This document shows positions 44,822 to 63,055 of a stretch of DNA of 64,000 bases, one piece after another; the first letter of the stretch is position 1, and each line of letters opens with the position of its first letter. Under the pieces are notes generated by a model. It was given only the letters and a program-made list of their open reading frames with translations. It had not been told where the DNA came from and ran no database searches. This DNA is from Rhodanobacter sp. ANJX3 (GTDB taxonomy: Bacteria; Pseudomonadota; Gammaproteobacteria; Xanthomonadales; Rhodanobacteraceae), in NCBI RefSeq assembly GCF_014200755.1, contig NZ_JACHCM010000001.1, forward strand, positions 476,218 to 540,217, read 5' to 3'. Made by a program: the position numbers and the translations under genes.

Positions 44822-44966
44822 TGGCCAAAGGTCTCGCCGGGCACAGCCGTCGCGCGAAGCGACGGCTTGCTGATCGCACCATGGTTCCGGAAAGTCCGGC
44901 CCCAATTGTGTTGATGCGAACGCCTCTGGGTACGAGGCTGGCTACTCCCCAATGACAAGGCCGTGA
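44822..44966 (-). promoter_or_regulatory. yybP-ykoY manganese riboswitch candidate
   Basis: The minus-strand leader of the exchanger contains the hallmark blocks in the right order: GGGGAGUAG (44942-44950), GCAUCAACA further on, then a GAGACC (44830-44835) closing block. Between them lie paired arms, including a perfect GCCGTCGC/GCGACGGC stem (about 44846-44868). This is the pattern of the Mn2+-sensing yybP-ykoY aptamer, known to control Mn2+/Ca2+ exporters. The P1 helix is imperfect by eye. I identified it from remembered consensus only. Confidence 0.72.
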
Positions 44967-52854: not shown

Positions 52855-53490
52855 TCAGGTATTGACCGGCAGCAGCCCGCGATCCGTAGCCATGCGGTAA
52901 AGGTCGAGCTCCGAACCCGCGCCCAGTTTTCCCATGAGGCTGGCGCGGTGGATGTAAACGGTTTTCTGGCCGATGCCCAGTTCCGCCGCCACCTGTTTCG
53001 GCGTCAGGCCGCCGGCCAGCAGCAAAAACACTTCGCGCTCGCGCGCCGTCAGTCGGCTGATCGGATCAAGCCCGGCGTTTGAACGGCCGGCGCGGCGCTC
53101 TTGCAGATCGGAGCTTAGAAAGGTTTCGCCATTCATCACCGCGCGTAGCCCGGCGACCAGTTCCTCCGGCGCTACACCCTTGGTGACATAACCGCTGGCA
53201 CCGCGACGAAGCGCTTCGGACACATACGGATCGCCGTCGTGCATGCTGAGTACCACGATGCGCGTTTCGCTGGAAACGCTCAGCAGATGCTCGATCAACG
53301 GCAGCCCACTGCCGTCGGGCAGAGACAGATCCAGCGCCACCAGATTGGGCCGCCACCGGCTGACTGCCTCCACCGCGTCATCGGCATTGCGGCACTCGGC
53401 CACCACGTCCAGATCGGGCTCGAGCTCGATCAGCCGTTTGAATCCCTCACGAACGATAGCGTGGTCATCGACCAGGACAATGGTATGCAT
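52855..53490 (-). CDS. LuxR/NarL-family response regulator
   Basis: A 211-residue regulator. The receiver domain has acidic Asp8/Asp9, phosphoacceptor Asp54 (LVALDLSLPDGSG) and Lys in YVTKGV. A LuxR-type HTH follows (LTAREREVFLLLAGGLTPKQVAAELGIGQKTVYIHRASLM). It is divergent from a histidine kinase 91 bases away, its probable partner (same UhpA/NarL class). Its target genes are not known; the palindrome near 55200 is a candidate binding site. Confidence 0.94.
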   Translation of the reverse strand: MHTIVLVDDHAIVREGFKRLIELEPDLDVVAECRNADDAVEAVSRWRPNLVALDLSLPDGSGLPLIEHLLSVSSETRIVVLSMHDGDPYVSEALRRGASGYVTKGVAPEELVAGLRAVMNGETFLSSDLQERRAGRSNAGLDPISRLTAREREVFLLLAGGLTPKQVAAELGIGQKTVYIHRASLMGKLGAGSELDLYRMATDRGLLPVNT

Positions 53491-53581: not shown

Positions 53582-55195
53582 ATGTACCATCCGCGCATGC
53601 GCCTGAAATCACTCCATCTGCCGGATTCCGGCCCGCTGCTGGCTATCGGCTATGTCTTGCTGTGGCTACTGCTGTGGCTGACCGTGCAGCCATACTGGAT
53701 GCTGCCGTACGGTCTACGCTTCGGCGCGCTGCTGCTTACGCCACTGCGCCACTGGGGCTGGCTGCTGGGAGCAGAGCTTGCGGTCACCGCCGGCATCGCC
53801 ATGGCACACGGCATGCCGCTGGGCTGGAACGGATTCCTGATTACCGAGCTGCCGGAGCCGCTGGTGATGGCATTGGCGCTATGGCTGCTGCGGCGCCTCA
53901 ACCTGCACGCCAGTTTGAACAGCCCACAGGAGGTGACCCGGCTGCTGCTCTCGGTCGTGTTCGTCGTCGCGGCAACCACCGCTGTCGACGCGGCCCTGCT
54001 CGACCTGATCCATGAACCGGGCTCGCCCGAGCTGATCATCAGCATCCTCGGGGAGGAACTGCTCAGCCACTATCTGGGCATTCTGCTGATCGTGCCACTG
54101 ATGATTCTGCTGCTGCGCACGCGCTTCGACCATCGCTCGCTGGCCAGCCTGGCGATGGACGGGCTGCTGGTGATGTTCCCCTCGATGATGATACTGCTGG
54201 TGCTGTCCGAGCAGGCCGCGCCGCAGCCGCAATTCGCCCGCGTGCTGTCGCTGGCGCCGGTGCTGTTTTTCGCCTTCCGCCACGGCTGGCGCGGAGCCAG
54301 CATGGCGATGATCATTTCGAGTTTCGGCATGAATCTGGTCGAACAGCATCTCGGGCATGCGCCGTCCACCGCGGCGGCCTATCTGTTTCTGGCGGTGGCC
54401 GGCACGGGCGCAATCATGCTCGGTTCGGCGACCGACGCCCTGCGCCGCAGCAGCGCGCGGGTGGCCGAGCAGAACGTTTATCTGGGCGCGGTGAATCGAC
54501 GATTGGATCAGCTGGCACAGCAGCTGCGCAGCGCCGCACGCGGCAATCTGCAGGCCGATGAAAACCAGCGCCGCTATCTTGCGGCCGAGCTGCACGACGA
54601 GCTGGGGCAGAACATCACCGCGATCCAGACCCATGTGAAGCTGGCACAGAGCCGCCTGCGTGACGCCGGCATGCAGGACATCAGCGCCTCGATCAATACC
54701 ATCCTGGGGCACATGCGCCGCGCGCTGCATCGGTTGCTTGACGATCTGCGCCCCGCCGTACTGGACGAGTTCGGGCTGATTCGCGCGCTGGACGAGGGTC
54801 CGATCCGCGATCTATTGCAGGCGGCCAATATCGCCTATTTCACCGAACTCCACGGCGATCCGCGCCTTCTGGATGACGACACGCGAACGGCGATCTATCG
54901 ACTGACCCAGGAAAGCGCGACCAATACCGTCAAACATGCGCAGGCCAGCGAGTTCAGGGTGCGCCTGCGTATCGGCGAACGCCAGGGCATGGTGCTTGCG
55001 TTGCTCGACTTGCGTGACAACGGCACCGGACTGCCCAATCGCATGCCCCGCGGCGGCCGCGGTCTGCAAGGCATGCGCGATCGGGTGACTTCACTCGGCG
55101 GACAGTTTCGGCTACGTGCGGATCACGCCGGCGTGCACTTGCGCATTTTGTTGCGAAGCAACAATAGCTTGCCCGATCTCACTCGGCTGGAGTAA
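53582..55195 (+). CDS. MASE1-type membrane sensor histidine kinase (UhpB/NarX class)
   Basis: A histidine kinase of about 537 residues. The N-terminal half has about eight membrane helices of the MASE1 type. The HisKA_3 segment is AAELHDELGQNITAI (His ~338), and the HATPase domain has TQESATNTVKHA (N box) and DNGTGLP (D/G box). The start is uncertain: ATG 53582 or 53597, neither with a good ribosome-binding site; the long open frame further upstream overlaps the regulator. Divergent partner: the LuxR regulator. The sensed signal is unknown. Confidence 0.88.
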   Translation: MYHPRMRLKSLHLPDSGPLLAIGYVLLWLLLWLTVQPYWMLPYGLRFGALLLTPLRHWGWLLGAELAVTAGIAMAHGMPLGWNGFLITELPEPLVMALALWLLRRLNLHASLNSPQEVTRLLLSVVFVVAATTAVDAALLDLIHEPGSPELIISILGEELLSHYLGILLIVPLMILLLRTRFDHRSLASLAMDGLLVMFPSMMILLVLSEQAAPQPQFARVLSLAPVLFFAFRHGWRGASMAMIISSFGMNLVEQHLGHAPSTAAAYLFLAVAGTGAIMLGSATDALRRSSARVAEQNVYLGAVNRRLDQLAQQLRSAARGNLQADENQRRYLAAELHDELGQNITAIQTHVKLAQSRLRDAGMQDISASINTILGHMRRALHRLLDDLRPAVLDEFGLIRALDEGPIRDLLQAANIAYFTELHGDPRLLDDDTRTAIYRLTQESATNTVKHAQASEFRVRLRIGERQGMVLALLDLRDNGTGLPNRMPRGGRGLQGMRDRVTSLGGQFRLRADHAGVHLRILLRSNNSLPDLTRLE

Positions 55196-55209
55196 GAATT
55201 TTTCTTATA
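55191..55209. promoter_or_regulatory. Palindromic regulator-site candidate before the GGA-rich RNA
   Basis: TAAGAA-TTT-TTCTTA (55193-55207) is a perfect 6-bp inverted repeat overlapping the kinase stop codon. Its half-sites AGTAAG and CTTATA resemble the GacA upstream activating sequence (TGTAAG-N6-CTTACA) with one extra spacer base. It may serve a LuxR-type regulator; no sigma70 promoter with good boxes follows it. Confidence 0.4.
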
Positions 55210-55244
55210 CCTGGAACGTAAAGACTTCGTTACGATCAGGTCAT

Positions 55245-55440
55245 CGATGTGGGGGAGCCACCATTGCAAGATGGTGGATCAGGGTCACCGTGGGGACGGT
55301 GGTTCTGAAAAACGGCAGGATGCTGTTTCGCCGCTATCCGGCGACGAGCCTCGGCAAACGGCACGCAATGCCCTCGCCGGTCGTGAGTCAGGATAGTGGA
55401 GCAGCCGTGAGTGGACAGGAGTCCTCTTCACGGCTTTTTT
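55245..55440 (+). ncRNA. GGA-rich structured RNA candidate (CsrB/RsmZ-like)
   Basis: This kinase-fur gap has five stem-loops in tandem. They are CCACCAT/ATGGTGG (55258-55277), CACCGT-GGGG-ACGGTG (55286-55301), AAACGGC-AGGAT-GCTGTTT (55310-55328), TCGCCG/CGGCGA (55328-55344) and a terminator GCCGTGA/TCACGGC (55404-55410/55428-55434) with inner GGAC-AGGA-GTCC and six T. GGA occurs eight times, several in loops (GGGGA, AGGAT, AGGA), as in RNAs that sequester CsrA/RsmA. No protein in the region looks real. Promoter not identified; the 5' end is a guess. Confidence 0.6.
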
Positions 55441-55486
55441 ATGCGCGCTATTTGCCCGGCAGAAGGGCAGAAGGCCCCGGCTTCGC

Positions 55487-55909
55487 TCAACCTTTCCTGG
55501 GGCGGTTCTTCGGACGCACGTAAATCACCAGGCTGTGATCCTCGATCACGTAGCCATGCTTGTCGGCAATCTCGCGCTGCAACCGCTCGATTTCCTCGCT
55601 GACGAACTCGATCACGGTTCCGCTGTCTACGTCGATCATGTGATCGTGATGCTTGCCGCGATCCAGCTCGTAGACAGCCTGACCACCCTCGAAGTTGTGT
55701 TTGACGATGATGCCGGCCGCTTCGAACTGGGTCAGCACCCGGTAAACGGTGGCGAGGCCAATGTCTTCCTGGTGGGCGAGCAGTTTCTTGTAGACGTCTT
55801 CGGCGGTGAGGTGCTGCACGCCCTCCTCGTCGAAAATTTGCAGAATTCGCATCCGCGGATGGGTGACCTTGAGGCCGACCCGACGCAGTTCTCTGGTTTC
55901 CTGTTCCAT
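55487..55909 (-). CDS. fur: Ferric uptake regulator Fur
   Basis: A 140-residue iron-responsive repressor. The winged helix has LKVTHPRMRILQIF and LATVYRVLTQFEAAGI. The metal-binding HHDHMIDVDSG stretch supplies His and Asp ligands. There is no cysteine at all, so the CxxC structural zinc site of Escherichia coli Fur is absent, as in related bacteria. The start at 55909 is the family-consistent one. Divergent from bamE, the usual omlA-fur arrangement. Confidence 0.96.
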   Translation of the reverse strand: MEQETRELRRVGLKVTHPRMRILQIFDEEGVQHLTAEDVYKKLLAHQEDIGLATVYRVLTQFEAAGIIVKHNFEGGQAVYELDRGKHHDHMIDVDSGTVIEFVSEEIERLQREIADKHGYVIEDHSLVIYVRPKNRPRKG

Positions 55910-55986
55910 AACCGACCCTATCGCACGCGGCGCCATCGAGCCCGTAGTGTATCATCCGACACCTTTACGATCTGGACGCAAGACGC

Positions 55987-62699: not shown

Positions 62700-63055
<356 letters not shown>

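Follow-up and report, generated by a model that had tools for sequence, protein, structure and literature searches.

The gap between a gene for a MASE1 histidine kinase and fur in Rhodanobacter sp. ANJX3 is predicted to encode a stand-alone RNA of about 200 nt that serves as a sponge of the CsrB/RsmZ type for the CsrA protein and belongs to a new sequence family, a reading to which we assign a probability of roughly 85%. CsrA is a global switch, and this RNA provides a concrete candidate for a CsrA antagonist in much of a bacterial family. An earlier note on this DNA had proposed a CsrA/RsmA sponge from its GGA-rich hairpins; the proposal is supported by GGA blocks that are invariant in 66 of 66 homologues, by covarying stems, and by a canonical CsrA encoded in the same genome. 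It is the comparison with relatives on which the sponge reading rests, and this comparison is decisive; the GGA count alone is weak.

Within the window (the whole 64,000-nucleotide stretch of DNA that was analysed), the local gene order is recN (+), response regulator (-), MASE1 kinase (+), RNA gap, fur (-), and bamE (+). The gap measures 291 bases, from the kinase stop at 55195 to the end of fur at 55487, and the predicted fold confirms the hairpin-rich structure described in the earlier note, with four hairpins and a terminator hairpin. The description needs correction in that the loop of hairpin 1 contains no GGA and the fourth hairpin varies among homologues, one of which (L052:4646-4802) does not have it. 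The RNA of L052 is a naturally occurring shorter version, with 157 nt, which is without the variable fourth domain and keeps the four invariant GGA blocks. On the plus strand, 55245-55442 has a folding energy of -90.8 kcal/mol (z = -3.78), equalled by 1 of 200 shuffles, and the terminator hairpin (55404-55434) carries the loop AGGA with six T residues behind it. The covariance model R1, built for this RNA, matches the gene with an E value of 5.5e-49, and its runner-up match in the same genome has an E value of 0.21. A leader or riboswitch of fur was ruled out because fur is convergent to the RNA. A search of the window against Rfam 15 gave no family at gathering score in the RNA region, and a search of 55190-55450 with E values up to 10 gave a single unrelated snoRNA model (E = 5.3), which we treat as noise. 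Elsewhere in the window, the Rfam Mn2+ riboswitch (yybP-ykoY) matches at 44857-44964 (-) at its gathering score of 45 bits, and an ordinary tmRNA gene gives a full-length match at 62701-63055 (-).

Features of the RNA locus, in window coordinates
Feature	Position	Strand	Basis
NarL/UhpA-type (LuxR-type) response regulator, candidate activator	52855-53490	-	Response_reg 7.3e-24, GerE 5.9e-16
MASE1 histidine kinase, HisKA_3, UhpB-like, candidate sensor	53597-55195	+	Pfam MASE1 1.1e-14, HisKA_3 2.7e-7
Promoter dyad TAAGAATTTTTCTTA, likely response-regulator site	55193-55207	+	found at each of the 65 named RNA loci
Putative -10 TACGAT (TANNAT in the alignment)	55231-55236	+	T, A, and last T constant in all 66
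Small RNA gene, ~199 nt, CsrA-sponge-like, predicted ends	55242-55440	+	alignment, covariation, model R1
5' GGA site TGGGGGA	55250-55256	+	invariant, 66/66
Hairpin 1, loop GCAA (no GGA)	55258-55277	+	fold; covarying stem
Hairpin 2, loop GGGG then A; loop region CGUGGGGACG invariant	55279-55308	+	66/66; lower stem covaries strongly
Hairpin 3, GGCAGGAUGCU, loop GGA, CsrB-like CAGGA(U/A/C)G	55310-55328	+	fold; 65/66 homologues
Variable domain and linker (long, weaker fourth hairpin); GGA at 55391 and 55398	55331-55399	+	poorly conserved
Predicted intrinsic terminator, invariant GGACAGGAGUC, then U tract	55403-55440	+	66/66; fold
fur, convergent with the RNA, outside the system	55487-55936	-	NF006999 167 bits, cut-off 146

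The trinucleotide GGA occurs eight times in the RNA, at 55254, 55276, 55294, 55318, 55391, 55398, 55413, and 55418. Over 55245-55440, these eight compare with 4.7 expected from mononucleotide shuffles (p = 0.07) and 5.3 from dinucleotide shuffles (p = 0.09), and the count ranks the region in the top 0.1-0.2% of the 196-base tiles of the window. The earlier note had assigned all eight to about 175 bases; over 55245-55419, there are seven (p = 0.16-0.22 in shuffles of the same sequence). By itself, the count of a single sequence is not significant and is only suggestive, as the note had also held. Loop position proved more telling than the count, again as the note had argued: with the closing pair of each loop included in the tally, the 66 homologues have 3.05 hairpin-loop GGA per RNA versus 0.64 in shuffles, and none of 30 shuffled sets reaches the observed value. 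The placement in loops holds for three of the eight GGA of the present sequence, while the remaining five lie outside hairpin loops. According to the excerpts of PMC7652899 on CsrA ligands, a GGA in a hairpin loop is what CsrA binds, the CsrB repeat reads CAGGA(U/A/C)G, and the ANGGAN hexaloop is the optimum of RsmE, a high-affinity preference and no requirement. Hairpin 3 fits the CsrB repeat. The loops of the present RNA, with 3-5 nt (GGA, GGGG, and AGGA), are shorter than this hexaloop; the ANGGA motif, which RsmE prefers in loops, has no occurrence in this RNA, where about one is expected, and is found in just 32 of the 66 homologues.

Comparative evidence comes from an alignment of 66 distinct homologous RNA sequences with a mean column identity of 72%. 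Covariation analysis, which the earlier note had named as a check, shows that the stems covary strongly: in a structure of 34 base pairs, 98.0% of the 2,244 cells are paired, changes on both sides are seen in 18 of the 34 pairs, none of 500 shuffles reaches any of the five measures used, and slid registers pair at 34-56%. These figures are to be read with the understanding that the structure, having been drawn from this very alignment, is somewhat favoured by it and that the shuffles treat related sequences as independent. The best case is the lower stem of hairpin 2, in which five of six pairs have changed on both sides. The loops, on whose conservation in relatives the earlier note had made its reading depend, are retained as part of four GGA blocks that are invariant in 66 of 66 sequences: TGGGGGA at the 5' end, CGTGGGGACG around loop 2, GCA(A)GGA[TAC]GC in hairpin 3, and GGACAGGAGTC in the terminator. 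Within these blocks, the GGA appears as GGGGGA at the 5' end, as GGGGA in loop 2, as the loop AGGA in the CAGGA(U/A/C)G context, and as AGGA in the terminator loop. The alternating base of hairpin 3 is T in 50 sequences, A in 12, and C in 4; at least one copy of CAGGA[TAC]G is present in 65 of 66, the exception being L066 with GCAAGGATGC. A further GGA in the linker, at most 30 nt ahead of the terminator block, is found in 49 of the 66 homologues.

More distant relatives carry the argument further. Among 16 genomes that are positive for the kinase and negative for R1, 12 have the promoter dyad, then a structured stretch of GGA hairpins, and then fur behind the kinase; of the other four, one meets a contig end and three are without fur at this place (two of their kinases are 37-40% identical). 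To these 12 we added five genus g13 members with weak matches, for a diverged set of 17; left out were 4 of 21 loci (L192, L198, L199, and L203) that have no dyad within 400 bases, L199 reaching a contig end. The 17 diverged RNAs have a mean of 3.00 loop GGA (range, 1-6) versus 0.59 in shuffled sequences, and none of 100 shuffled sets reaches this value. By eye, their stems and sequences have largely been replaced while hairpins with GGA loops remain at the same place, as in the terminator loop AUGGA in genus g13 (L183), AAGGAC in L187, and CACGGAUC in L189. Because the stems are replaced yet the GGA loops are kept, selection appears to act on the GGA rather than on the stem, and we regard this as the strongest argument of the analysis. 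Such a pattern, with stems that turn over and GGA loops that stay fixed, also offers a guide to similar RNAs missed by sequence models.

The protein partner required by the sponge reading is encoded in the genome, which has two proteins of the CsrA family. The first aligns over residues 1-55, with few substitutions, to PDB 1y00, "Carbon storage regulator," from Escherichia coli, and it also matches 2jpp and 2mf0, which are RsmE-RNA complexes. The second (L002, C5:394346) is extended at its C terminus by about 40 residues; most genomes of the family have a single CsrA. Across the 12 genomes with diverged RNAs, a CsrA match is absent in two (G442 and G469, which are 87 and 90% complete). We propose that a signal would reach the MASE1 kinase, which would phosphorylate a regulator (the adjacent UhpA/NarL-type one being the most likely); the phosphorylated regulator would then bind the dyad at about -43 and switch on transcription of the RNA. 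The transcript would offer about five GGA sites (the 5' single strand, two hairpin loops, usually the linker, and the terminator loop), and by binding CsrA dimers these could titrate CsrA off mRNA leaders.

A search at the DNA level detected the region in 51 of 100 genomes, the present one included, comprising 41 of 44 other members of the genus, 9 of 15 other members of the family (Rhodanobacteraceae), and none of 40 genomes from other families; G017, G023, and G030 gave no strong RNA match. A scan with the kinase yielded 71 named loci, in 65 of which the RNA lies directly behind the kinase and in 63 of which the full order recN-response regulator-kinase-RNA-fur-bamE is present. Among named kinases, those nearest in sequence (94-97% identity) come from Rhodanobacter records, and most of the others are in records of Rhodanobacter, Dyella, Frateuria, and Fulvimonas, with some from metagenome-assembled genomes under other labels. 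The six loci without the RNA are explained by a contig that ends too early (L033 and L096), by an unrelated kinase (L103), or by a changed downstream region (L062, L073, and L077). At the last three, other sequence stands in place of the RNA and fur; because recN, the regulator, and the kinase follow one another in order, they are more probably orthologues whose locus has changed. Here, the RNA has either moved or been lost, so that the pair may act on other targets. In the order (Lysobacterales), R1 matched 101 of 398 genomes, and all 96 strong matches fall in Rhodanobacteraceae; the five weak ones (E = 1e-5 to 3e-3) lie in stretches with neither kinase nor fur and were rejected as homologues outside the family. 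Family-wide, the R1 RNA was found in 99 of 177 genomes, the kinase in 115, and CsrA in 169, and the 99 RNA-positive genomes all have both the kinase and CsrA. These large searches of the order and the family used stricter filters, under which weak matches can be lost, and phylogeny confounds the absence of the RNA from kinase-negative genomes, in that a diverged RNA would go unnoticed. Kinase-like genes of family f2 (13 among the matches listed) were treated as other kinases: at the 10 loci examined, the dyad was not found within 450 bases downstream, fur is absent from the stretch, and there are 3-10 GGA.

The likely promoter of the RNA is marked by the dyad, which reads TAGGAA[A/T]TTTTCC in relatives and TAAGAATTTTTCTTA here, its two halves altered together. 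TAAGAATTTTTCTTA has a single exact match in the window and overlaps the kinase stop codon. When both strands of the 65 named loci (489 kb) were scanned, the dyad pattern occurred at the RNA only, and its centre lies 49-51 bases ahead of TGGGGGA in 66 of 66 sequences. At the 17 diverged loci, it is found 39-246 bases past the end of the kinase match. The 13-mer TAGGAATTTTTCC, sought in 36 genomes of the genus (the present one included), has 24 of its 27 exact matches at the RNA and 3 elsewhere; the exact form is missing from 10 of the 36, the present genome among them, and it is present in two other-family genomes. Judged by both the exact and the pattern matches, the dyad is typical of the RNA promoter. 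The three exact copies away from the RNA (L140, L129, and L134) are possibly due to chance; the one in L140 precedes an open reading frame resembling, by eye, a glutathione S-transferase. No good -35 element was seen by eye, so the promoter is probably activator dependent. We infer a start near 55242, which would put the dyad centre at about -43, a usual position for an activator. RcsB belongs to the NarL family. In the part of PMC12388358 that gives the RcsA/B site, this site reads TAAGAATATTCCTA, which the dyad resembles.

The earlier note had remarked that RNAs of this kind are usually under GacA-type LuxR regulators, but the adjacent LuxR-type regulator is not of the GacA family. Its best NCBIfam models are MctR, UhpA, and NarL, all under their cut-offs, and against the GacA model it scores about 120.7 bits (cut-off, 280), sixth in the list of the genome. 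A closer GacA relative is encoded at C1:546059, with 224.2 bits, likewise under the cut-off. The same CsrA sponge might be activated by this regulator or by another NarL-family one, with the adjacent pair a mere neighbor; this alternative, which concerns control only and overlaps the main sponge claim, would draw on the higher score of the distal regulator and on the three loci that have the pair without the RNA. However, the GacA box, given as TGTAAG-N6-CTTACA in an excerpt of PMC4950607, has no occurrence within three mismatches near the RNA promoter, where a different dyad stands instead, and the pair and the RNA occur together in 63 of 71 loci, with the kinase in every RNA-positive genome. 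We consider this alternative unlikely. Given the synteny and the dyad, the adjacent pair is the more plausible candidate for control of the RNA, although its presence at those three loci, where no RNA follows it, speaks against a pair strictly dedicated to this RNA. A broader proposal, which we regard as evenly balanced between right and wrong, is that the Csr wiring of Rhodanobacteraceae differs, with a dedicated MASE1 kinase and UhpA/NarL-type regulator that would have the RNA as its main or only chromosomal target through the TAGGAANNNTTCC dyad and would drive an independently arisen CsrA sponge instead of, or beside, Gac. If true, such a rewired switch would fill the place of the missing CsrA antagonist for one branch of the order to which Xanthomonas belongs. 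With the likely sensor and the promoter site adjoining the RNA, both the input signal and the output are testable at one locus.

The remaining alternatives question the sponge itself or its origin. A conserved structured RNA could have another job, with its G-rich loops pairing with mRNAs or binding another protein; the loops GGGG and AGGA could indeed pair with C/U-rich targets, and the present sequence has no ANGGA. We find this improbable, as GGA is all that the loops share, with no single long seed, and it persists while stems and neighbors change; the context of hairpin 3, moreover, fits the CsrB repeats. The RNA might also be cut from the 3' untranslated region of the kinase mRNA and have no promoter of its own. 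It does lie directly downstream of the kinase on the same strand, and RsmU of Xanthomonas, described in the available text of PMC7694677 as derived from the comEA mRNA, is a precedent. A consensus scan likewise found no sigma-70 promoter; that scan picked up neither the promoter nor the terminator proposed here, its single terminator lying at 55131-55144 within the kinase gene. Against such processing, a dyad and TANNAT precede the RNA at a fixed spacing in 66 of 66 homologues, and the dyad is kept also where it lies away from the kinase stop, so that this origin is very improbable. There is next to no chance that the stretch encodes a small protein from the ATG at 55247 or consists of chance hairpins, because, although a frame beginning ATGTGG is open throughout the RNA in 32 of 66 homologues, the reading frame is not conserved across the 66 (frame offsets between blocks vary, those to the terminator being 26/20/20 over the three frames), and chance hairpins are ruled out by the covariation.

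Among the literature matches listed, no title or start of an abstract describes such an RNA in Rhodanobacteraceae. A prediction study, PMC5568370, lists CsrA RNAs in selected species and, in its accessible portions, proposes activation by non-Gac regulators; its main text contains no mention of Xanthomon, Dyella, or Stenotrophomonas, and the main text of PMC9928087 does not mention Rhodanobacter. The accessible text of PMC7694677 and PMC7286519 describes Xanthomonas genomes as lacking CsrB/CsrC or RsmZ-type homologues, and the authors of the former suggest, in the same portion, that RsmU is limited to Xanthomonas.

The functional kind to which the RNA would belong is known from CsrB, RsmY, and RsmZ; as a sequence family, it matches nothing in Rfam 15. 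Like CsrB/CsrC of Escherichia coli and RsmX/Y/Z of Pseudomonas, it is predicted to be a free-standing transcript that ends at an intrinsic terminator. It also has in common with them several GGA in hairpin loops and in linkers, a CAGGA(U/A/C)G context, CsrA in the genome, and, upstream, a candidate activator-type site. Unlike those RNAs, it has no Rfam match in its region, the TAGGAANNNTTCC dyad replaces the GacA box, and the RNA adjoins a MASE1 kinase, a UhpA/NarL-type regulator, and fur. The sites here are also fewer than those of CsrB, which binds about 18 CsrA subunits according to the same excerpts of PMC7652899. The kinase and regulator are comparable to UhpB/UhpA and NarX/NarL in joining a MASE1/HisKA_3 kinase with a NarL-family regulator but differ from these in that their NCBIfam matches all fall under the curated cut-offs and that their conserved neighbor is a small RNA. 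Xanthomonas is in the same order as Rhodanobacter, and RsmU of Xanthomonas campestris is of the RsmA/CsrA-sequestering kind predicted here. Whereas RsmU is processed from the comEA 3' untranslated region, according to the available text of PMC7694677, the present RNA lies at another locus and has its own promoter-like sequence.
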